From the NCBI RefSeq assembly GCF_024649945.1, contig NZ_JANKMS010000002.1, positions 1-64,000 on the forward strand: 64,000 nt of DNA, given 5' to 3'. The notes beneath the pieces are model-generated. The model was not told the origin of the DNA. It was given only the letters and a program-made list of their open reading frames with translations, and searched no databases. Of the stretch, positions 29,388-40,347 are shown in pieces (positions within the stretch are counted from its first letter, which is position 1; every line of letters starts with the position of its first letter). A program made the position numbers and the translations under genes. This DNA is from Flavobacterium panacis (lineage in GTDB: Bacteria > Bacteroidota > Bacteroidia > Flavobacteriales > Flavobacteriaceae).

Positions 29388-29401
29388 ATGATATTTGTCA
29401 T
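29388..29401 (+). promoter_or_regulatory. FNR-like box of hemN
   Basis: ATGATATTTGTCAT lies exactly 22 nt upstream of the -7 element TAATTTTG. It matches the boxes at 37007 and 39511 in sequence and spacing, so the Crp/Fnr regulator at 39664 is the likely activator. Confidence 0.75.
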
Positions 29402-29423
29402 TTTATCTCGGTCATTGAAGTTT

Positions 29424-29431
29424 TAATTTTG
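29424..29431 (+). promoter_or_regulatory. -7 element of hemN
   Basis: TAATTTTG matches TAnnTTTG and is 21 nt before the chosen ATG at 29453. Confidence 0.65.
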
Positions 29432-29452
29432 ATGAAAACTAAATTCGTCGTT

Positions 29453-30817
29453 ATGAAAATTTCTTTGACTCAGAAGTACAATGTCCCAGGTCCTAGATAT
29501 ACTAGCTATCCGACAGTTCCGTATTGGAATGAAGCTGATTTCACATCAGAAAAATGGATCACAACTTTACAAAAATCATTCACAGAAAGTAATTCAAAGA
29601 ACGGAATCAGTTTATATATTCATCTTCCATTCTGCGAAAGCATGTGTACTTTCTGCGGATGCAATAAACGTATTACCAAAAATCATTCTGTAGAAGAAAA
29701 ATACATTGACGCTGTTCTTAAAGAGTGGAAAATGTATTGTGATTTACTTCCTGAAAAACTGGTAATCAAAGAAATTCATTTAGGCGGGGGAACTCCAACT
29801 TTCTTTTCAAAAGAAAATCTGGAGCATCTTATCAATGGGATTTTCAAAAATGCTGTAAAAGCAGAAAACCATGAATTTAGTTTTGAAGGACACCCTAATA
29901 ATACTACTTACGAGCAACTTAAAAAATTATATGAACTAGGTTTTCGTCGTGTAAGTTTTGGTGTTCAGGATTATTCGGCTACAGTTCAAAAAGCAATAAA
30001 CAGAATTCAGCCTTTTCATAATGTTGCCAAAGTGACTTTTTGGGCAAAAGAAATTGGTTATACTTCTATTGGTCATGATATTATTTTTGGCCTTCCTTTT
30101 CAAACCATCGAAGACGTCATTGATACAGTCGAAAAAACAAACTCATTAAAACCAGATCGTTTAGCTTTTTATAGTTATGCACATGTTCCCTGGATAAAAG
30201 GAAACGGACAAAGAGGTTTTAATGATGAAAATCTTCCAAAAGATGCTGAAAAAAGAAAATTATACGAAACAGGTAAAAAAATGCTGATTCAGAATGGTTA
30301 CCATGAAATTGGTATGGATCATTTTGCCTTAGCAGACGACAGTTTGTACAAAGCTGCTCATAACGGTAAACTGCACAGAAACTTTATGGGTTACAGTGCT
30401 TCTAAAACACAGGTTATGATTGGTTTGGGAGTTTCTTCCATTAGTGACAGCTGGTATAGTTTTGCTCAAAATACTAAAAATCTGGAAGAATATTATGAGA
30501 TTTTAGAATCTAATGAGCTTCCTGTTGTTAAAGGTCATATTTTGAATGATGAAGACTTAATCATCAGAAAACACATTTTAAATTTAACCTGCGAGTTGGA
30601 AACTTCATGGACTGCAGAATCTTTAAATTTTGCTGAACTTCCTGAAGTTTTAATTGCTTTAAATGAAATCGAAAATGATCATTTGATTGTGATTGAAAAT
30701 AACAAAATCAAGATTACAGAAGAAGGAAGACCTTTTGTACGCAACATTTGTATGGCTTTCGATTTACATCTAAAAAGAAAGTCACCGGAAACAAATCTGT
30801 TTTCGATGACTGTATAA
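29453..30817 (+). CDS. hemN: Oxygen-independent coproporphyrinogen III oxidase
   Basis: 454 aa, radical SAM enzyme converting coproporphyrinogen III to protoporphyrinogen IX without oxygen, for haem synthesis under low oxygen. The cluster motif PFCESMCTFCGC (CxxxCxxC, about residues 56-67) is followed by LGGGTPTF, SFGVQDY and a HemN C-terminal domain. The PGPRYTSYPTVPYW N-terminus is typical of true HemN rather than HemW. The ATG at 29453 is chosen; an earlier TTG overlaps the -7 box. An FNR-like box upstream fits its microaerobic role beside the cco genes. Confidence 0.95.
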   Translation: MKISLTQKYNVPGPRYTSYPTVPYWNEADFTSEKWITTLQKSFTESNSKNGISLYIHLPFCESMCTFCGCNKRITKNHSVEEKYIDAVLKEWKMYCDLLPEKLVIKEIHLGGGTPTFFSKENLEHLINGIFKNAVKAENHEFSFEGHPNNTTYEQLKKLYELGFRRVSFGVQDYSATVQKAINRIQPFHNVAKVTFWAKEIGYTSIGHDIIFGLPFQTIEDVIDTVEKTNSLKPDRLAFYSYAHVPWIKGNGQRGFNDENLPKDAEKRKLYETGKKMLIQNGYHEIGMDHFALADDSLYKAAHNGKLHRNFMGYSASKTQVMIGLGVSSISDSWYSFAQNTKNLEEYYEILESNELPVVKGHILNDEDLIIRKHILNLTCELETSWTAESLNFAELPEVLIALNEIENDHLIVIENNKIKITEEGRPFVRNICMAFDLHLKRKSPETNLFSMTV

Positions 30818-30842
30818 AATCTTTTAAAATATATTTTATTTT

Positions 30843-31544
30843 TTAATGGCAGTTTGGAGTTTGTTGCACAAATAAACTCATATTGGAAGGAGAAATATAA
30901 GGAATTCCTAATCCTAATCCGCGAAGGATAAATAAAACTCCAATTATTACCGCTACATAAGGGATTGCCTTTTGAATTTTATTTCGAAATGGCAATTTCA
31001 ATAGCGTATTGACATACACTACAACTGTCATTAACGGAATAGTTCCAATTCCGAATAAAAGCATATACAAAACGCCATAACCAGCACTTTGCATCGCAAT
31101 TGCTCCAAATAAAGCAACATAAACCATTCCGCAAGGAAGAAAACCATTTAAAAGACCAATTGTAAAAAGAGATTTGTAACTCTTGTTTTTAAACTGGCTT
31201 CCAAGGTTTGATTTTATTTTTGAAATGATTTTGTAAACAGGTTTAGAAAAATTGTACTGAGCAAATTTCTTTTCCGGAATCAAAACCACAATAATCATGA
31301 TTATACCAATAATTATTGACATTTTTTGCTGTAATCCAGCCAGAAAAAAACCTCTTCCTAATAAACCAAAAATCAATCCGATCGTACCATAAGCAGTCAA
31401 TCGACCGAAATGATAGGTCATAATCTGCGTTACCCTTTTGGCTTCATTTTGCCTGTTTACTGGAAGCATCATGGCAATGGGTCCGCACATTCCAACGCAA
31501 TGCAGACTACTAATTAAACCTAAAAAGAAAGCTGAGAATAACAT
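30843..31544 (-). CDS. TauE/SafE (UreH-like) family membrane protein of the cco cluster
   Basis: 233 aa, six membrane segments. The N-terminal FLGLISSLHCVGMCGPIAMML motif (with the conserved HCxGMC) and NGFLPCGMVYVAL are typical of the sulfite-exporter-like family that follows ccoH in Bacteroidota and Proteobacteria. A role in metal or cytochrome oxidase assembly is suspected. It starts 5 nt after the stop of ccoH, at the end of the operon. Confidence 0.88.
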   Translation of the reverse strand: MLFSAFFLGLISSLHCVGMCGPIAMMLPVNRQNEAKRVTQIMTYHFGRLTAYGTIGLIFGLLGRGFFLAGLQQKMSIIIGIIMIIVVLIPEKKFAQYNFSKPVYKIISKIKSNLGSQFKNKSYKSLFTIGLLNGFLPCGMVYVALFGAIAMQSAGYGVLYMLLFGIGTIPLMTVVVYVNTLLKLPFRNKIQKAIPYVAVIIGVLFILRGLGLGIPYISPSNMSLFVQQTPNCH

Positions 31545-31549
31545 GGTGT

Positions 31550-31999
31550 TTAGTTTACGTAAATAACTTCTTTAGTGAGGTATTTTTTGCCTTCATATTG
31601 CCATTCCATATTCACATCCCAACGTCCTTTTACTAATTTTTTCTGCGGAATAATAATTTCTGAATTGGTTAAAGCAATCTGAGTATTGAAATCAAATTTC
31701 TTGTTTGAAGGTCTGTACAATTGAATATTTCCTTTTACTTTATCACTTTCAAATCCTGCAGGAAAAATTACTGCTACACCATTTTCCGTATACTTGATTG
31801 AAGGTTTATGCTGTAAATCGTGAGCATTCTGAATTCGAGCCATTTCTTCCTGAAAGTGCGTATCGTGTTTGTAATATTCTTCTACAACCAAATCATTATC
31901 GTATTTAGAGTTTGATTGCACTTCAAAAACAAAGTATAAAATAAATGTCATAAACAATCCAAATGCAATGACTATTCCTGTTCCCCAATTAATTTTCAT
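31550..31999 (-). CDS. ccoH: FixH/CcoH family cytochrome oxidase assembly protein
   Basis: 149 aa. One N-terminal membrane helix (TGIVIAFGLFMTFILYFVFEV) precedes a periplasmic domain containing EEMARIQNAHDL and a C-terminal KGRWDVNMEWQYEGKKY, as in FixH. The protein helps assemble cbb3 oxidase. It lies between ccoG and the TauE/SafE-like gene. Confidence 0.9.
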   Translation of the reverse strand: MKINWGTGIVIAFGLFMTFILYFVFEVQSNSKYDNDLVVEEYYKHDTHFQEEMARIQNAHDLQHKPSIKYTENGVAVIFPAGFESDKVKGNIQLYRPSNKKFDFNTQIALTNSEIIIPQKKLVKGRWDVNMEWQYEGKKYLTKEVIYVN

Positions 32000-32011
32000 G
32001 ATAATTATATT

Positions 32012-33430
32012 TTAATTAAAACTTCGTGGTCCTAAGAAATTTGTAGTTGTTGTTTCCAGGAGTTCAGAACCGTTATAAACTCCGATTTTTACTTTTGTTT
32101 TATCACTTTCCAATAAAACTTCATCTATTTCGATAAATAGTGTTCCTTGAGAAATTCCTTCTTTTACAACTTTAAAATGTCTTTTTCCAACATTTTTAAT
32201 TTCTCCTTTTTGATCGATCAATTCGAAATGAATATCGTTGTAATCTTTCATCGTTTTGTTTACAATTTTATAGGTGTAAACATTACTGATTTTTTCTCCG
32301 TTATGCTGAAACAACTGACCAGGTAAACGCAAAATAACAGCCTGAAGATCAGTTCTCAAAAACAGCATTCCAACAAAAATACTCAATAAAATAAAGAGAA
32401 CAGCCGAATATCCTTTCATTCTTGCCGTGAACTTAAAAGGTTCTTTTTTCGCAATTTCATCTTCAGAAGCATAACGAATCAAACCTTTTGGCAAACCTAC
32501 CGATTCCATGATATGATCACATTCGTCGATACAAGCTGTACAATTTGTACATTCTAATTGCGTTCCGTTTCTAATATCAATTCCCATTGGACAGACGTGT
32601 ACACATTGAAGACAATCTATACAATCTCCTTTTCCAGTTAAAGCACGATCTTCTTTTTTATTGAATTTAGCACGTCCTTCTTCTTTTTCACCACGAACAA
32701 AATCGTACGCAACATTGATTGATTTGTTATCTAAAAGAACACCTTGTAATCTTCCGTAAGGGCAGGCAATAATACAAACTTGTTCACGAAACCATACAAA
32801 AACAAAGTAGAAAACACCTGTAAAAATAAGTAGTGCAATAAAATTACTAGCTTGTGCAATTGGACCTTGTTCAATCATTAAGAACAAAGAATCACTTCCA
32901 ACCAAATAAGCCAGAAAAACATTGGCAATAAGAAAAGAAATTAAAAAGAAAATAGTCCATTTGGTTAGTCTTTTTCTAATTTTTTCAGCATTCCATTCTT
33001 GTCTTGCTAAACGAGATTGCGCTCCGCGGTCTCCATCAATCCAATATTCAATTCGACGGAAAACCATTTCAAGAAAAATAGTCTGCGGACAAATCCAGCC
33101 GCAAAATATTCGTCCAAAAACAACTGTAAACAAGAGTATAAATACAACTCCAATAAGCATTGAAATTACAAAGAGATAAAAATCCTGTGGCCAAAAAGGG
33201 AATCCAAAAATATTAAATCGACGTTCTAAAATATTGAACATCATAAATTGGTTTCCATTTATTTTGATAAACGGATTTATAAATAAGATTGCCAATAAAA
33301 CATAACTGACAATTTTGCGGTAATCGTAAAATTTACCAGACGGTTTTTTGGGAAAAATAAATTTCCGTTTACCACCTTCATCTATCGTTCCAATGGTATC
33401 TCTAAAAGCTTCGTCTGGTAAATTTGACAT
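32012..33430 (-). CDS. ccoG: Cytochrome c oxidase accessory protein CcoG
   Basis: 472 aa. Five membrane segments and the FixG pattern are clear: CGWICPQTIF, IACPYGRLQG, and a double [4Fe-4S] ferredoxin region (CIDCLQCVHVCPMGIDIR, CTNCTACIDECDHIM, about residues 265-305). A C-terminal periplasmic Ig-like domain follows. CcoG is thought to handle copper reduction in cbb3 oxidase maturation. Part of the cco operon. Confidence 0.95.
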   Translation of the reverse strand: MSNLPDEAFRDTIGTIDEGGKRKFIFPKKPSGKFYDYRKIVSYVLLAILFINPFIKINGNQFMMFNILERRFNIFGFPFWPQDFYLFVISMLIGVVFILLFTVVFGRIFCGWICPQTIFLEMVFRRIEYWIDGDRGAQSRLARQEWNAEKIRKRLTKWTIFFLISFLIANVFLAYLVGSDSLFLMIEQGPIAQASNFIALLIFTGVFYFVFVWFREQVCIIACPYGRLQGVLLDNKSINVAYDFVRGEKEEGRAKFNKKEDRALTGKGDCIDCLQCVHVCPMGIDIRNGTQLECTNCTACIDECDHIMESVGLPKGLIRYASEDEIAKKEPFKFTARMKGYSAVLFILLSIFVGMLFLRTDLQAVILRLPGQLFQHNGEKISNVYTYKIVNKTMKDYNDIHFELIDQKGEIKNVGKRHFKVVKEGISQGTLFIEIDEVLLESDKTKVKIGVYNGSELLETTTTNFLGPRSFN

Positions 33431-33464
33431 GGTATTCTATTTTATTTTTTTAACTTTTGTGGTA

Positions 33465-34376
33465 TTATTTTGCTGGGGCAGCATCAGTTGCAGGAGCACT
33501 TTCATCTACCCAAACTTCACCTTCTGCTTCTTTTGGATCTTTTGGATTACTTCCTTGTAAAGACAGAATATAACTAGCAACTTTTTGTATTTCTTTTGGT
33601 TTTAGGGTTCCTTTCCAAGCAATCATCCCTTTACCATCTCTACCTCCATTTGTAATGGTATGGAATATCTCTTTAATTCCTCCTCCTAAAATCCATTTAT
33701 TATCAGTAAGGTTTGGTCCAATCTGTCCTCCCGCATCGGCACGGTGACAAGCTGCACAATTGGTTGTAAAGATTGTTTTACCTTCATCTAAACTTGGTGC
33801 ATCTGTTAGTAAAACAACTGTTTTTTCATCCATTAAATCTGGTGCTGTTTTCATGTATTCTGCAACATCAATTTTTGCCTGAGCCAATTCTTTTTTCAAC
33901 TCCATTTCTTGATCATCTGCGCCTAAAACATCGTAACGAACTACATAGATAACTCCGAAAATGATACAGATGTAGAATAAATACACCCACCATGGTGGTA
34001 AATTATTATCCAACTCTTTGATTCCGTCATAATCATGATCCATCAACAACTCACCTTCTTTTTCAATTGGCGCAGTTTGAGTCAATTTATGCATTAGGTT
34101 TTTAAACCAGGTACTTTCTTTGAAGCTTAAACTTTCTTCAAGTGCTTTTTGCGCTTTTTCTTCTGGTGATAATAATTCATGCATTACACGATTAACAGCA
34201 CTAAGCGTAATTTCAATTGCAATAAGTATAAAAAGAAAGACAAACAAGAAAAGCGATATCATTGGATATTTTATGAAAGCCGGCTTATCGCCTGAGTCTA
34301 CAAAATATTCCATCAAAGCGAATACAGTAAAAAATATCACTGGTACCCTAACATATACTGGGAAAAACTTTTTCAT
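33465..34376 (-). CDS. ccoP: cbb3-type cytochrome c oxidase subunit CcoP (single haem)
   Basis: 303 aa. Two N-terminal membrane helices (first from residue 9, second about residues 40-58), a third near residue 130 after PPWWVYLFYICIIFG, and one C-type haem site CAACH (about residue 208). Proteobacterial CcoP carries two haems; the single site here is typical of Bacteroidota. The C-terminus is Ala/Pro/Glu-rich. It passes electrons to CcoO in the periplasm. Confidence 0.93.
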   Translation of the reverse strand: MKKFFPVYVRVPVIFFTVFALMEYFVDSGDKPAFIKYPMISLFLFVFLFILIAIEITLSAVNRVMHELLSPEEKAQKALEESLSFKESTWFKNLMHKLTQTAPIEKEGELLMDHDYDGIKELDNNLPPWWVYLFYICIIFGVIYVVRYDVLGADDQEMELKKELAQAKIDVAEYMKTAPDLMDEKTVVLLTDAPSLDEGKTIFTTNCAACHRADAGGQIGPNLTDNKWILGGGIKEIFHTITNGGRDGKGMIAWKGTLKPKEIQKVASYILSLQGSNPKDPKEAEGEVWVDESAPATDAAPAK

Positions 34377-34378
34377 TT

Positions 34379-34573
34379 TTATTTGTCTTTTGAAGTTATA
34401 ATAAGTCCTTCATCTAAAGGTATACTACTCATTTCCTGAATTTTTTCTTTTCTGTAAGAGAACACCCAAAAGCCTAATCCTACAAAGAATAAAAAGAAAA
34501 TCAAGAGGGAAAGAATCGGGTAAATTTCTATACCCGATATGGTTTCCATATTGTGTTTTATTTGTTCAAACAT
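34379..34573 (-). CDS. ccoQ: CcoQ-like small subunit of cbb3 oxidase
   Basis: 64 aa with one membrane helix (IYPILSLLIFFLFFVGLGFWVFSY) and a charged C-terminus. Size and position between ccoNO and ccoP identify it as the CcoQ-type stabilising subunit, despite low sequence conservation of that family. Confidence 0.85.
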   Translation of the reverse strand: MFEQIKHNMETISGIEIYPILSLLIFFLFFVGLGFWVFSYRKEKIQEMSSIPLDEGLIITSKDK

Positions 34574-34580
34574 AATGCTG

Positions 34581-36764
34581 TTATTTAGTTTCTTTTACTT
34601 TAATATCAGTACCAAGTCTTTGAATATAAGCAATCAGCGCCACGATTTCTCTTTCATTCATCGGAATGAATTTCTCTCCTTTTGCTGCAGCTTTTTTACG
34701 ACTGTCTTCATAACTTTTCACAAAGTCAGGATCACTTTCTAAACTTTTTTCGATCTTAACCGCTTGTTCTCTTAAAGTTCTTTGTGCATTAGCAACATCT
34801 TCTGGAGAATATGGCACACCTAATGAAATCATTGCCTGCATTTTTTTCTGTGTCAATGAAATATCCATCGGTTTGTTATCGAACAACCATTTGTAACCTG
34901 GCATAATTGATCCCGCAGATGTACTTTGTGGATTCCACATGTGGTTAAAATGCCAGTTATCATTATACTTACCTCCAACTCTTAACAAATCAGGTCCTGT
35001 ACGTTTTGATCCCCACAAGAATGGATGATCGTAAACAAACTCCCCTGCTTTCGCCTGAACTCCGTAACGTTCAACCTCACTTCTAAATGGACGAACTGAT
35101 TGAGAGTGACAACCAACACATCCTTCTCTAATGTATAAATCACGTCCTTCTAATTCTAATGGCGTATATGGTTTTACGCTTGAAATTGTTGGAATATTTG
35201 ATTTTACCATAATTGTTGGTACAATCTGAATAATACCTCCAATTAAGATTGCGATTGTAGCCAAAATGGTTAACTGAATTGGTTTTCTTTCTAACCAAGA
35301 GTGGAATTTTTCTCCTCTTACTCTTCCACTGCTTATTCTTTGTAAAGCAGGTGCTTGAGCCAATTCATCTTCTACTGGTGCACCAGCTCTAACTGTCATT
35401 ATAATATTATACACTAATGTCAGCATCCCAATTAAATACAGAGATCCACCGATGGCTCTCATCCAGTACATTGGCATAATAGCTGTTACTGTTTCTAGGA
35501 AGTTACCATAAGTTAACGTTCCGTCTGGGTTAAATTGTTTCCACATAGAAGCTTGTTGAAAACCAGCTACATATAAAGGAATTGTATATACGATAATACC
35601 TAAAGTTCCAATCCAGAAATGGAAGTTTGCCAATTTCTTAGAGAATAATTCTGATTTTGTCATTCTTGGAATTAACCAATAAATAATACCAAATGACATG
35701 AAACCATTCCAAGCTAAAGCTCCAACGTGCACGTGTGCTACGATCCAGTCCGTATAGTGCGCGATAGCATTTACATTTTTAAGAGATAGCATTGGCCCTT
35801 CAAAAGTTGCCATACCATAACCTGTAATTGCCACTACGAAGAATTTTAAAACTGGTTCTTCACGAACTTTATCCCAAGCTCCTCTTAATGTTAGAAGACC
35901 GTTGATCATACCTCCCCAAGATGGAGCAATTAACATTACCGAAAACGCAACTCCTAAATTCTGAGCCCAGTTTGGTAAAGCAGAATACAATAAGTGGTGT
36001 GGTCCTGCCCAGATATAGATAAAAATTAATGACCAGAAGTGAATAATAGATAATCTATAAGAGTAAACAGGTCTGTTTGCAATTTTAGGAACGAAATAGT
36101 ACATTAATCCTAAGAACGGAGTTGTCAAGAAAAATGCCACTGCATTGTGTCCGTACCACCATTGTACCAACGCATCCTGAACACCTGCGTAAACAGAATA
36201 ACTTTTTAAAGCTGAAACCGGAATTTCAATATTGTTAAAGATATGTAGTACCGCTACTGTAACAAATGTTGCAAGATAAAACCAGATTGCAACATACAAG
36301 TGACGCTCTCTACGACGCAGCATGGTTCCAATCATATTGATTCCCATAACTACCCAAATCAAGGCGATTGCAATGTCAATTGGCCACTCTAGTTCTGCAT
36401 ATTCTTTAGAAGAAGTATAACCTAACGGAAGTGTAATCGCTGCTGCAACAATAATTAACTGCCATCCCCAGAAATGAAGATTACTTAAAAAATCACTAAA
36501 CATTCTGGCTTTTAGCAATCTTTGCAGCGAGTAGTACATACCGGCAAAAAAGGCATTACCTACAAAGGCAAAAATAACTGCATTGGTGTGTAATGGTCTT
36601 AAACGGCCGTAACTAAGCCACGAGATCCCATCTGTCATGTTGGGAAAAAGGTACATTACCGCAAGGGTAAGCCCCACTAACATACCCACAACTCCAAAGA
36701 GTATTGTGGCGTAAATGAATTTTTTTACAATTTTGTTGTCGTAATAAAACTGTTCCATTTCCAT
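34581..36764 (-). CDS. ccoNO: Fused cbb3 oxidase subunits I and II (CcoN-CcoO)
   Basis: 727 aa. The first ~480 residues form CcoN with the haem and copper ligands (RPLHTNAVIFAFVGN, WWYGHNAVAFFLT, GPHHLLY, HVHVGALAWNG). After a linker the rest is CcoO, with one membrane helix and the C-type haem site CVGCHSQSVRPF (about residue 545). In most bacteria these are separate genes; the fusion is usual in Flavobacteriia. This is the catalytic core of the high-affinity terminal oxidase. Confidence 0.96.
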   Translation of the reverse strand: MEMEQFYYDNKIVKKFIYATILFGVVGMLVGLTLAVMYLFPNMTDGISWLSYGRLRPLHTNAVIFAFVGNAFFAGMYYSLQRLLKARMFSDFLSNLHFWGWQLIIVAAAITLPLGYTSSKEYAELEWPIDIAIALIWVVMGINMIGTMLRRRERHLYVAIWFYLATFVTVAVLHIFNNIEIPVSALKSYSVYAGVQDALVQWWYGHNAVAFFLTTPFLGLMYYFVPKIANRPVYSYRLSIIHFWSLIFIYIWAGPHHLLYSALPNWAQNLGVAFSVMLIAPSWGGMINGLLTLRGAWDKVREEPVLKFFVVAITGYGMATFEGPMLSLKNVNAIAHYTDWIVAHVHVGALAWNGFMSFGIIYWLIPRMTKSELFSKKLANFHFWIGTLGIIVYTIPLYVAGFQQASMWKQFNPDGTLTYGNFLETVTAIMPMYWMRAIGGSLYLIGMLTLVYNIIMTVRAGAPVEDELAQAPALQRISSGRVRGEKFHSWLERKPIQLTILATIAILIGGIIQIVPTIMVKSNIPTISSVKPYTPLELEGRDLYIREGCVGCHSQSVRPFRSEVERYGVQAKAGEFVYDHPFLWGSKRTGPDLLRVGGKYNDNWHFNHMWNPQSTSAGSIMPGYKWLFDNKPMDISLTQKKMQAMISLGVPYSPEDVANAQRTLREQAVKIEKSLESDPDFVKSYEDSRKKAAAKGEKFIPMNEREIVALIAYIQRLGTDIKVKETK

Positions 36765-36766
36765 AA

Positions 36767-36958
36767 TTATACTTGTTTTTCTTCGATTGGTGAATTATTA
36801 TTTTGGGAAATAATTTTGGTCTCATCGTCAAAAAGAATTCTGACTGAAGGTGTATAATCGTCGTCGTACTGGCCAGATTTGACAGCAATAATGAAAGCAA
36901 TAAAGAAACAAATTGCTACGAAAATACTTACTGAAATTAAAAGATAAATAACACTCAT
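36767..36958 (-). CDS. ccoS: CcoS cbb3 oxidase maturation protein
   Basis: 63 aa with one N-terminal membrane helix (IYLLISVSIFVAICFFIAFI) and the CcoS signature (KSGQYDDDYTPSVRILFDD). It is needed for cofactor insertion into cbb3 oxidase. First gene of the operon and 2 nt upstream of ccoNO. Preceded by a -7 element and an FNR-like box. Confidence 0.92.
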   Translation of the reverse strand: MSVIYLLISVSIFVAICFFIAFIIAVKSGQYDDDYTPSVRILFDDETKIISQNNNSPIEEKQV

Positions 36959-36976
36959 ACCGTAAATTTATGTTAA

Positions 36977-36984
36977 CAAAATTA
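36977..36984 (-). promoter_or_regulatory. -7 element of the cco operon
   Basis: The minus strand reads TAATTTTG (TAnnTTTG), 18 nt upstream of the ccoS start. Confidence 0.65.
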
Positions 36985-37006
36985 CTAGGTGATTGGCGTT
37001 TAAAAT

Positions 37007-37020
37007 ATGATAATTATCAT
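37007..37020 (-). promoter_or_regulatory. FNR-like box of the cco operon
   Basis: ATGATAATTATCAT is a perfect palindrome with the half-sites TGAT and ATCA of the FNR consensus. It lies exactly 22 nt upstream of the -7 element, which places its centre near -41, typical for class II activation. Confidence 0.82.
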
Positions 37021-37072
37021 GCTCAGAGAAGAATAATAAAAATAAAAAAAATATCTTTTGAATTATTTAAAA

Positions 37073-39460
37073 TTAATCTAAATTACTCTTACTGAAATAG
37101 TTAGACATAATCGTTACAAAACTTACTATCGTAATTGTACTCAATGGCATAATGATCGCAGCAACCAACGGAAGGAGGTTTCCTGTAACAGCAAATGCTA
37201 GTCCAACAACGTTGTAGAGCAACGATAAAGTAAAACTCATCTTGATAATAGAAATTGCCTTATGAGAAAGCTTTAAAAAGTAATTCAAGCGTGAAAATTC
37301 AGAAGCATCTAAAATAGCATCACAAGCTGGAGAAAAGACATTAACATTCTCAGAAATCGAAATCCCGACATTGCTTTGTGCTAATGCTCCAGCATCGTTT
37401 AAACCATCTCCAACCATCATCACATTTTTACCTCTTTCCTGAAGTTTCTTAATATACTCAAGCTTTTGTTCAGGTTTTTGATTGAATATTAATTCTGTAT
37501 TTTCAGGTAAAATAGCTTCTAAATTTGTCCTTTCTCCATCATTATCCCCAGAGAGCACTTTGATTTCGTACTCTTTACTCAGTGTCAAAAAAAGATTCTC
37601 TAAGCCTTCCCTATATTGATTCTGAAAAGTATATTTTCCAAAGTAAACCCCATCTATTTTAATATGTAAAGCAGTTTTTTCAATTTCAGAACCATCTGCG
37701 ACTATATTATCTACAAATTGTCCAGAACCAATTCTAATTTCTTCACCTTCAATAACTGCTAAAATCCCTTTTCCCGTAATTTCCTGAAAATCTTCAACAT
37801 TAAGGCGTTTGGTTTCTGGAAGAAAATCATAGAGCATTCTACTTAAAGGATGGTTTGATCCTCTCAAAACATTTTTAACCAATATGATATCAAAATCAGA
37901 AAGAGCATTTCCTTCATACTGTATATTCGATTTTTTATTCGTTGTAATTGTTCCTGTTTTATCAAAAACAATCGTATCTACTTTTGCGAGCTGTTCTATT
38001 ACAATAGCGTTTTTTAAGTAAAATTTCTTTTTCCCTAGAATTCTCAAAATATTACCAAAAGTAAATGGAGCTGTAAGTGCCAAAGCACAAGGACAAGCTA
38101 CAATTAAAACTGCTGTAAAAACATTAAAAGCAATATTGGCATCTATAGAAATCCAATAACCAAAACCAGCAAATGCAATTAGCATTAATATGGGGGTAAA
38201 ATAACGGCTTATTGCATCTGTTATGGTTTTGTGTTTTTGATCTACTTTTTTCTGAAAAATTTCGTTGCTCCACAATTGCGTTAGATAACTTTGAGAAACA
38301 GAATGTAAAACTTCCATTTCAATAACTTTTCCTATTTGTTTTCCTCCAGCAAACACTTTATCACCAGATTTTTTAGTGATAGGAACTGCTTCACCCGTTA
38401 CAAAACTATAATCGATTTCGGCACTCTCGCTGATTAAAATTCCATCAACTGGAATAAGTTCTTGGTTTCTAATCAATAAACGATCGCCTTTTACAACATC
38501 GTAAATAGCAACATTATCTTCTGAAGTATCTTTATTGATTTTGGTAACTGCAATTGGAAAATACGATTTAAAATCTCTTTCGAAACTTAAAAAACTATAG
38601 GTTTTAATTTGAAACATCTTACCAAGGAGCATAAAGAATACTAAACTTGCCAAACTATCAAAAAAACCAGGTCCGTGATCCATTAGCATATCATACGAAC
38701 TACGAATAAACATTACAATAATTCCTAAAGCAATTGGAATATCGATATTTAACATTCTCGTTCTAATGCTATGATAAGCAGAAACATAATATCCGCTTGC
38801 TGAATATAAGAAACTTGGCAATGCCAAAAGGAAAATCAACAATCTGAAAAAGGGTTTGTAACTGTCCAGCCAGAATTCTTTCATTTCAAAATATTCCGGA
38901 AATGAAAGCAACATTATATTTCCAAAACAAAAAAAGGCAACACCAAGTTTGTATGTAAGACTTCTGTCTACTTTTGTTTTTCCTGTTTCATAATTTTCTA
39001 AGCTGATGTACGGTTCATAACCAATAGAACTTAGCAAATAAACAATTTCTTTTAAAGAAACAGTATCCGAATTAAAAGTTATTCGAACTTTCTTTTCATG
39101 AAAATTAACTTGTGAAATGCTGATTCCTGGTTGAAGACGATTTAAATTCTCCAAAATCCAAATACATGAACTGCAGTGAATGTGCGGAATACTTAAAGAA
39201 ACGATTGCTGTATTTCCTTCCTGAAATTCTAAAACTTTAGAAAGTATCGCTTCGTTCTCTAAAAAATCATATTTTCCTTTGATGTCTTGCGGAGTGGCAC
39301 CGGGCGACTTTTCAAAATCATAATAAGAGGTTAAGTCGTTAACGCTGAAAATTTCGTAAACCGTTTTACAGCCTGTACAACAAAACTTCTTATCATCAAA
39401 CTCAATTTCTTCATTTTGTTCAATAGATAAACCACAATGAAAACAACTTTGCTCCCTCAT
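37073..39460 (-). CDS. ccoI: Copper-transporting P-type ATPase CcoI
   Basis: 795 aa. The N-terminal cysteine-rich domain (CFHCG, CCTGCKTVYE) is followed by a heavy-metal-associated domain with HIHCSSCIW (about residues 93-101). Next come the membrane core with CPCAL (about 455), the phosphorylation motif DKTGTIT (about 500) and GDGLNDAGAL. This combination defines CcoI/FixI, the exporter that supplies copper to cbb3 oxidase. The ATG at 39460 gives the family-typical MREQSCFHCG start. It has its own FNR-like box. Confidence 0.95.
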   Translation of the reverse strand: MREQSCFHCGLSIEQNEEIEFDDKKFCCTGCKTVYEIFSVNDLTSYYDFEKSPGATPQDIKGKYDFLENEAILSKVLEFQEGNTAIVSLSIPHIHCSSCIWILENLNRLQPGISISQVNFHEKKVRITFNSDTVSLKEIVYLLSSIGYEPYISLENYETGKTKVDRSLTYKLGVAFFCFGNIMLLSFPEYFEMKEFWLDSYKPFFRLLIFLLALPSFLYSASGYYVSAYHSIRTRMLNIDIPIALGIIVMFIRSSYDMLMDHGPGFFDSLASLVFFMLLGKMFQIKTYSFLSFERDFKSYFPIAVTKINKDTSEDNVAIYDVVKGDRLLIRNQELIPVDGILISESAEIDYSFVTGEAVPITKKSGDKVFAGGKQIGKVIEMEVLHSVSQSYLTQLWSNEIFQKKVDQKHKTITDAISRYFTPILMLIAFAGFGYWISIDANIAFNVFTAVLIVACPCALALTAPFTFGNILRILGKKKFYLKNAIVIEQLAKVDTIVFDKTGTITTNKKSNIQYEGNALSDFDIILVKNVLRGSNHPLSRMLYDFLPETKRLNVEDFQEITGKGILAVIEGEEIRIGSGQFVDNIVADGSEIEKTALHIKIDGVYFGKYTFQNQYREGLENLFLTLSKEYEIKVLSGDNDGERTNLEAILPENTELIFNQKPEQKLEYIKKLQERGKNVMMVGDGLNDAGALAQSNVGISISENVNVFSPACDAILDASEFSRLNYFLKLSHKAISIIKMSFTLSLLYNVVGLAFAVTGNLLPLVAAIIMPLSTITIVSFVTIMSNYFSKSNLD

Positions 39461-39480
39461 AAACTTGTTTTTATTTGTCG

Positions 39481-39488
39481 CAAATTTC
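39481..39488 (-). promoter_or_regulatory. -7-like element of ccoI
   Basis: The minus strand reads GAAATTTG, one mismatch from TAnnTTTG, exactly 22 nt downstream of the FNR-like box. Confidence 0.5.
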
Positions 39489-39510
39489 CAATTAAAGCAC
39501 AATTATTAAG

Positions 39511-39524
39511 ATGATAATTGTCAT
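39511..39524 (-). promoter_or_regulatory. FNR-like box of ccoI
   Basis: ATGATAATTGTCAT differs at one position from the perfect palindrome at 37007. Its centre is about -41 from the predicted ccoI start site. It lies in the divergent ccoI-fnr gap but far from the fnr promoter. Confidence 0.78.
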
Positions 39525-39637: not shown

Positions 39638-39645
39638 TAATTTTG
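39638..39645 (+). promoter_or_regulatory. -7 element of the Crp/Fnr gene
   Basis: TAATTTTG (TAnnTTTG) lies 18 nt before the ATG at 39664. A TTG inside it is the only longer start and can be dismissed. No FNR-like box lies at the -41 position, so strong self-activation is not indicated. Confidence 0.6.
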
Positions 39646-39663
39646 CACCAAACAACTATTGTC

Positions 39664-40347
39664 ATGAATAAATGTGATCAATGCATTGTACGCCAGCTAA
39701 GCTCATTAAAAGCCCTTAACAAAGAAGAAGTTATAAAATTAGCCAGCAGCAAAACCACTTACAAAATTAAAAAAGGTGAAGCCATTTTTGAAGAAGGCGA
39801 AGTAACCAATGGTGTTTTTTGTGTAAAAGATGGTGTTGGTAAACTTTCAAAATTGAGTGCAAACGGAAAAGACCAGATCGTAAAACTGGTAAAATCTGGA
39901 GAACTTCTCGGACAACGTTCTATGATTAGCAACGAGCCTGCAAACTTAACAGCAAAGGCTATTGCAGACATGGAAGTTTGTTTTATTCCTAAAACAGAAA
40001 TCATTAATTTCTTTAACACCAACAATCAGTTTTCATTAAACATGATGCAGTCTGTTTGCGAAGATTTGAAAGAGTCTGAAAATGAAAAGATTGCTTTGGT
40101 TCAGAAAACGGTTAAACAAAGACTAGCAGAAACTCTACTTCAATTGCATGAAGCTTTTGGAGAAGATACCGACAAAACGCTTAAAGTTCAACTAACCAGA
40201 GAAGAACTTGCCGGAATTATTGGTACTGCAACAGAAAGCTGTATCCGTTTATTATCTGATTTTAATAAATTAGGATTAATCGAATTAGTTGGTAAAAAAA
40301 TTATGCTTAAAGACGTTCGAGCTTTAAAGAAATTAGCCGATAACTAG
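39664..40347 (+). CDS. Crp/Fnr family transcriptional regulator
   Basis: 227 aa. A cyclic-nucleotide-binding-like N-terminal domain (KKGEAIFEEGEVTNGVFCVKDG) is followed by a long dimer helix and a winged helix (TREELAGIIGTATESCIRLLSDF, about residues 174-196). The recognition helix has E-x3-R, fitting a TGA-containing half-site. Four cysteines near residues 4, 7, 53 and 106 could ligate an iron-sulfur cluster, as in FNR-type oxygen sensors, though spacing differs from E. coli FNR. It is divergent from ccoI and is the likely activator of cco, ccoI and hemN. Confidence 0.9.
   Translation: MNKCDQCIVRQLSSLKALNKEEVIKLASSKTTYKIKKGEAIFEEGEVTNGVFCVKDGVGKLSKLSANGKDQIVKLVKSGELLGQRSMISNEPANLTAKAIADMEVCFIPKTEIINFFNTNNQFSLNMMQSVCEDLKESENEKIALVQKTVKQRLAETLLQLHEAFGEDTDKTLKVQLTREELAGIIGTATESCIRLLSDFNKLGLIELVGKKIMLKDVRALKKLADN

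Follow-up and report, generated by a model that had tools for sequence, protein, structure and literature searches.

In Escherichia coli, class II FNR promoters carry the site of the regulator centred at -41.5, where both FNR and CRP sit in class II promoters, and their targets lie in low-oxygen respiration. The FnrL, Anr and FixK regulators of Proteobacteria control overlapping core targets (fixNOQP, hemN). Here we describe three near-palindromic boxes, and a Crp/Fnr regulator gene next to one of them, in a stretch of 64,000 nt from Flavobacterium panacis (contig NZ_JANKMS010000002.1, positions 1 to 64,000; hereafter the window), whose genome comprises 5.96 Mb in 37 contigs. Centre and kind of target are as at the E. 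coli promoters, and we consider it very probable that the boxes are operators of this regulator, called Fnr below, which would act at low oxygen as a class II activator and, depending on the clade, also as a repressor of its own gene. The half-sites differ from those of E. coli (ATGAT-N4-ATCAT versus TTGAT-N4-ATCAA), and the promoters have a -7 element, TAnnTTTG, that is read by a primary sigma factor different from the E. coli one. The box and the cysteine arrangement of FnrL, Anr and FixK also differ from those of Fnr, and we know of no box common to divergent ccoI and fnr genes in those systems, although no search for one was made.

By box we mean the 14-mer near-palindrome ATGAYANNTRTCAT with half-site ATGAT. 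A preliminary description of the window had placed such boxes at 29388, 37007 and 39511, each 22 nt from a -7 element, with a Crp/Fnr gene adjoining ccoI, and all of this is found in the DNA. On the forward strand, ATGATATTTGTCAT (29388..29401) precedes hemN, encoding oxygen-independent coproporphyrinogen III oxidase (29453..30817, inferred start; TIGR00538 above cut-off). The other two promoters point along the reverse strand: the perfect palindrome ATGATAATTATCAT (37007..37020) stands before the cco operon, in which ccoS (FixS, 63 aa, 36767..36958) is the first gene past the box, and ATGACAATTATCAT (39511..39524) before ccoI (37073..39460), a P-type ATPase of a metal-transport family that we name after its neighbourhood. 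The -7 element begins 22 nt past the box in each case, as an exact TAATTTTG at hemN (29424..29431) and cco (36977..36984) and as a degenerate GAAATTTG, with one mismatch, at ccoI (39481..39488). The regulator gene fnr (39664..40347, forward strand, 227 aa) is divergent from ccoI.

The -7 box TAnnTTTG of sigma-A promoters in Flavobacterium psychrophilum is placed at -12 to -5 (PMC9723704). With a gap of 22 nt the box would span -48 to -35, as predicted for hemN with a +1 near 29436, and be centred at -41.5, so that the position of about -41 suggested earlier agrees with the arithmetic. Such arithmetic supports a class II activator position for the ccoN, hemN and ccoI boxes; a gonococcal FNR site is listed at 41.5 (PMC1802743). 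Among the distinct promoters compared, 62 of ccoN and 70 of hemN, none has a TTG at the 19-nt position. Bacteroidota promoters have a consensus TTG at -33 with a characteristic spacing to -7, and its absence fits expectation because an activator would replace the -33 element. At ccoN and hemN the upstream core element is thus weak or absent, as at class II promoters.

The window contains three exact boxes, where 300 first-order random sequences average 0.04, and the rough probability of a common gap to two exact and one single-mismatch -7 element is 8e-7; chance is therefore an unlikely source of the arrangement. The signal resides in the joint pattern of box, gap and -7 element and not in the box. 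Taken alone, the box is not enriched in the window at up to 2 mismatches (31 versus 22.7 expected, a value reached by 5 of 100 shuffles) or in the whole genome with no more than one mismatch allowed (86 forward matches versus 88 for the reversed pattern that served as control), and it was rejected as a means of finding the regulon. A genome-wide scan for the box, 22 nt and TAnnTTTG, proposed in the preliminary description, returned 23 sites at up to 2 mismatches versus 3 for the control, so that part of the 23 is expected by chance. At up to 3 mismatches the counts were 50 forward and 50 reverse (100) versus 23 and 24 (47).

Spacing was then compared in the best 80 of 327 ccoI loci, which come from Flavobacterium, from Flavobacteriaceae of unnamed species and from one [Flexibacter] (the named loci), with hemN scored in the 73 where the gene and 200 nt upstream of it lay inside the locus. 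An exact box, a gap of 22 and an exact -7 element precede ccoN in 80/80 and hemN in 73/73 loci, the intervening sequence being variable (positions 17-22) except for a T-run right after the box. The ccoI box is likewise present in all 80 (76 exact, 4 with one mismatch), with a degenerate -7 element at a gap of 22 in 45 loci and of 23 in 35. Over 61 Flavobacterium genomes, an exact box followed after 8-38 nt by an exact -7 element occurs in 56, and the control pattern gave 5 matches in total by hand sum. Among the 150 matches listed, which exclude one genome (G003), the gap is 22 in 104, 21 in 8, 23 in 4, 24 in 1 and 8-10 in 24; twelve genomes that were listed again have it at 22 in 24 of 39 matches (hand count). 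Other genera of the family show gap 22 in 19 of 25 matches, and genomes outside the family in 5 of 22. The proposal of an exact 22-nt spacing as a promoter grammar thus stands for ccoN and hemN, where the gap is invariant. As a strict rule for every gene it was rejected, since ccoI uses 22 or 23, gaps of 21, 23 and 24 occur in the genus, and fnr itself has a separate short-gap geometry.

Sites and regulator tend to occur together. An Fnr orthologue (E below 1e-60) was counted by hand in 55 of the 61 genus genomes, and a match to the pattern at some gap was found in 54 of these 55 versus 2 of the 6 without it (p = 1.4e-4). Across 198 Bacteroidota genomes, whose species are not independent, 20 have a gap-22 site; Fnr at E <= 1e-40 is present in 19 of them versus 13 of the 178 others (Fisher p = 4e-17), and the genomes with both include three of one family (f21) outside the class of the window. 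The box might alternatively belong to a second Fnr-like protein, or to several Crp/Fnr proteins together. Such a paralog is encoded in the window's own genome (L240, G000:C3:130303), with the canonical cysteine set (CxxC-x4-C and C106) and a similar helix, E-Q-A-I-R. However, among 20 genus genomes in which Fnr is the sole Crp/Fnr match at E <= 1e-10, 18 keep a gap-22 site, so the paralog is not needed; moreover, in 17 related loci (L139-L155) the box sits between ccoI and fnr. We regard control by the paralog, or by several such proteins, as quite unlikely and prefer Fnr as the protein that would bind the box.

Fnr shares with E. coli FNR the order of its domains (PF00027, the cNMP-binding beta-roll, and PF13545, the Crp-type HTH, both above cut-off) and the equivalents of C20, C23, C122, E209 and R213, the three cysteines being C4, C7 and C106. 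It differs by having no cysteine at the C29 position, an additional Cys53 that aligns with Ala70, and Ile in place of Ser212. Its best NCBIfam match is NF008365 (Fnr), at 82 bits under a cut-off of 228. C4, C7, C106, C53, C132 and C193 are invariant in 110/110 Flavobacterium homologues, and the third N-terminal cysteine, equivalent to Cys29, is absent from all 110. Within the phylum, 28 of 29 homologues (window included) combine CxxC, C53 and C106 with S, T or N in place of C29, and the remaining one (L223) is without CxxC, C53 and C106; C132 and C193 are not kept in this set. Of twenty paralogs from the genus, 15 carry CxxC-x4-C together with C106 and have Phe at position 53; the other 5 show none of these features. 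As aligned, the third N-terminal cysteine and C53 are mutually exclusive in the examined set, which appears to be new, and each cysteine-bearing group, Fnr and the CxxC-x4-C paralogs, has four candidate ligands. In the CRP fold the strands bearing Cys53 and Cys106 are neighbours. C53 is probably the fourth ligand of a [4Fe-4S] cluster. Replaceable ligands have a precedent in the Fnr of Bacillus subtilis and Bacillus cereus, where three cysteines and one aspartate are described as holding the cluster (PMC3520743). The cysteines of the Bacillus protein are C-terminal, whereas the window Fnr has an N-terminal CxxC and two beta-roll cysteines. Another protein to be named here is 2gau, a Crp/Fnr protein of Porphyromonas gingivalis and the closest solved sequence (E 1.3e-27); the match to it covers residue 17 onwards and therefore does not include the N-terminal CxxC.

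The recognition helix differs as well. It reads E191-S-C-I-R195 in Fnr versus E-T-I-S-R in E. coli, and ExxIR is found in 110/110 Flavobacterium and 29/29 phylum homologues, with ATGAT, not TTGAT, as half-site. Ser212 of E. coli FNR reads the first T of TTGAT; its equivalent in Fnr is Ile, and the half-site of the box begins with A. By orthodox FNR standards the protein therefore departs at the Cys29 position, in the ExxSR helix with its TTGAT half-site, and at the NF008365 cut-off. Absence of the orthodox Cys29 ligand, along with nirK, narK-like and nrfH genes among the targets given below, could also suit a regulator that senses nitric oxide, redox or a nucleotide, low oxygen acting on it indirectly. 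We find this unlikely, since the core targets are the cbb3 oxidase and hemN, and C4, C7, C53 and C106 are kept as a set in 110/110 genus and 28/29 phylum homologues. Oxygen remains the signal that we favour for Fnr.

The intergenic region of ccoI and fnr presents a second geometry. In the 17 loci L139-L155, with Fnr identities of 67-72%, ccoI and fnr diverge in 17/17, their starts being 101-113 nt apart with the box between them (15 exact; L139 and L141 with one mismatch). Towards fnr this box lies 8-12 nt from the -7 element in 17/17 (one mismatch in L147), and on the ccoI side a -7-like sequence (up to 1 mismatch) follows at 21-23 nt in every locus but L150 (16/17). In the genus survey, 23 of 28 listed matches with gaps of 8-13 are located 15-33 nt ahead of fnr and on its strand, and the short gap at fnr occurs in at least 31 of the 55 Fnr-bearing genomes (8 of them from the repeated listing, by hand comparison). 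A dimer bound at the short gap would be centred near -27 to -31 and would cover the -33 element, from which we infer autorepression of fnr. One box would then serve both divergent genes, ccoI at 21-23 nt by activation and fnr at 8-12 nt by repression, and this implied arrangement would be new. The window's clade (L126-L137) is different: here the starts of ccoI and fnr are 194-205 nt apart and the box begins 141-153 nt before fnr, about 95 nt farther than in the short-gap relatives. In the window a -7-like TAATTTTG of fnr is found at 39638..39645 on the forward strand, and the nearest box ends 113 nt upstream of it. Across the named loci the distance is 140-154 nt in 79/80 and 56 in one. Judged by this comparison, the window's clade has lost the short-gap fnr geometry and kept the ccoI site. 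One further locus (L138) is without ccoI and without a box within 260 nt. Upstream of fnr the exact palindrome is missing in 13/14 of the distant orthologues (L211-L224, 35-42% identity), and the putative autoregulatory box is seen here in the genus and near relatives.

Are these peculiarities enough to speak of a separate class? We give about an even chance to the view that Fnr represents a distinct oxygen-sensor class of Bacteroidota, in which the fourth ligand would have moved from Cys29 to Cys53 of the beta-roll, the ExxIR helix would go with an ATGAT half-site, and the ccoI-fnr palindrome would work in two directions, distance alone deciding between activation (21-23 nt) and repression (8-12 nt).

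Genes downstream of the sites are in line with the microaerobic regulon proposed in the preliminary description, a notion supported by enrichment of the pattern, its spacing throughout the genus and its co-occurrence with fnr. Eight sites with up to 1 mismatch in the window's genome precede hemN, ccoS, ccoI, a TrhP-like gene of the U32 family (196 bits, where the TrhP cut-off is 534), a YceI gene whose similar neighbour has a 2-mismatch site, nirK (above the TIGR02376 cut-off), a FabH-like gene that stays below its cut-off and, at a distance of 253 nt, a PTPS/QueD-like gene named by eye. The 2-mismatch sites include hemH (above cut-off), and two sites (L026, L035) have no gene downstream. We further looked at 40 genus sites with gap 22 or 23, hand-picked among the matches listed to avoid the cco locus. 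They precede 9 hemN genes, 7 copies of a single-span protein of 41-45 aa, 3 NarK-like transporters (one scored, at 188 bits below the 311.7 cut-off, its gene being cut by the locus end), 2 U32/TrhP-like and 2 DUF465 genes (one scored), and 2 cytochrome-c-like proteins plus a further c-type protein recognised by eye. Single instances above cut-off are nirK, NrfH, the small subunit of a [NiFe] hydrogenase, TrhO and a globin (Pfam); a YceI-like gene (by eye), a CBS protein and, despite the avoidance of cco, ccoN (L174) also occur once each. At 6 of the 40 sites (L163, L175, L185, L188, L192, L194) no clear target was apparent. F. psychrophilum under oxygen limitation is reported to induce strongly its cbb3 oxidase and enzymes of haem synthesis (PMC9723704).

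Several of these genes deserve a separate remark. The small single-span membrane protein, mostly of 41-47 aa (L245-L262, for example G007:C25:132603-132728), is found in 20/61 genus genomes; it has no Pfam match, and no match to it was obtained in the window's genome. Two of the 20 loci (L263, L264) gave no local alignment; in 17 of the 18 aligned loci the box, 22 nt and -7 element (up to 2 mismatches) lie 16-44 nt upstream, and the protein is probably one of low-oxygen respiration. Boxes at gaps of 22 and 23 stand, in different genomes, before the TrhP-like gene (L018; an oxygen-independent type, below cut-off) and the TrhO gene (L158; oxygen-dependent, above cut-off), which suggests that tRNA modification may be under oxygen control. 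One of the 2-mismatch sites in the window's genome (L028, G000:C11:767517-767560) has a TTGACATTTGTCAA box at gap 22 ahead of a second Crp-like regulator gene, possibly as part of a cascade or as a site with orthodox FNR specificity. Finally, at some 3 kb from fnr a box at gap 22 is followed by the gene of a 478-aa protein with no NCBIfam match (L194, G025:C37:16000-17513).

The letters of the box allow yet another explanation, namely control through operators of the Fur type: overlapping units similar to GATAAT, the units of a Fur box, can be read in ATGATAATTATCAT. A Fur operator would be a longer, symmetrical palindrome of 19 bp; the flanks of the 14-mer are variable on the 5' side and a conserved T-run on the 3' side, and such a longer symmetry does not appear to be kept. 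The genes could be iron-responsive, and hypoxia-induced genes of F. psychrophilum are indeed described as responding to iron scarcity too (PMC9723704). Against this stand the fixed centre at -41.5, an activator position, the co-occurrence of sites with Fnr (p = 4e-17), and named targets that are genes of respiration and haem synthesis, not of iron uptake. We consider Fur control highly improbable and hold to Fnr.

Read in this way, Fnr encoded at 39664-40347, divergent from ccoI, would at low oxygen bind ATGAT-N4-ATCAT at -41.5, probably by means of a [4Fe-4S] cluster on C4, C7, C106 and C53. Once bound, Fnr would act as a class II activator through contact with RNA polymerase and compensate for the missing -33 TTG. 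It would switch on the cbb3 oxidase (ccoS-ccoNO and following genes), the metal-loading ATPase ccoI and, through hemN and the hemH found at another site in the genome, haem synthesis that needs no oxygen; further low-oxygen genes, those of denitrification included, would join in according to the genome. Across much of the genus a dimer on the ccoI box, 8-12 nt from the fnr -7 element, would cover -33 and repress fnr, a loop that would have been lost in the window's clade. The circuit is of a known kind in an unusual form, and its mode of action is most likely that of FNR at class II promoters.

Several observations fit this picture poorly. Of the genus genomes that lack an Fnr orthologue, G037 (89% complete) nevertheless contains a gap-22 site and G039 contains matches at other gaps, and G016 has Fnr but no pattern match; in the phylum set, G067 has gap 22 but no Fnr at E <= 1e-40, and 13 genomes with Fnr have no exact gap-22 site. 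The loci are kin to one another, so that their counts are not independent events. The case for autorepression draws on geometry. The AlphaFold model of Fnr is weak (pLDDT 74.9, pTM 0.46) and yields no cysteine distances; the 50 rows listed in a structure comparison were mainly cyclic-nucleotide-binding domains and 2gau, with no FNR structures, while sequence search did match structures of FNR, 5cvr among them. An activator that depends on a cluster would not obviously lead one to expect that iron scarcity, too, raises the flavobacterial hypoxia genes (PMC9723704). It should be added that a Crp/Fnr homologue of Flavobacteriales was predicted to sense carbon (PMC8510549), in a description that did not let us tell whether it is the same protein as Fnr.

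The remaining genes of the cluster follow ccoS on the reverse strand: ccoNO, encoding fused cbb3 oxidase subunits I/II (34581..36764), ccoP (FixP_N and cytochrome c domains, 33465..34376), ccoG (FixG-type ferredoxin, 32012..33430), ccoH (FixH, 31550..31999) and, at the cluster end, a DsbD_2 family membrane protein (30843..31544). As for hemN, the first ATG of its frame (29432) comes directly after the -7 element; we prefer the ATG at 29453 as the start because the former precedes the predicted +1. Starts of hemN in relatives lie 17-23 nt past -7, in line with 29453.

In the open-access literature, covered mostly through titles and the openings of abstracts and by searches not all aimed at this question, we found no report of the box, the spacing or the cysteine pattern in Bacteroidota. 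Features that appear new are the putative two-way ccoI/fnr box, the lack of a Cys29 equivalent together with an invariant Cys53, and the pairing of an ExxIR helix with ATGAT. Oxygen control in Bacteroidota, which are major bacteria of soil, water and gut, is little described in the searchable literature. Judging from our results, the E. coli class II geometry, with its centre at -41.5, seems to hold despite a different sigma factor. The genus-wide rule predicts low-oxygen genes, among them denitrification-type genes (nirK, narK-like, nrfH) and the small membrane protein. The cysteine swap may be viewed as a natural experiment on ligand relocation in an iron-sulfur sensor, and the common ccoI-fnr box as a simple case in which distance alone may decide whether a gene is activated or repressed.

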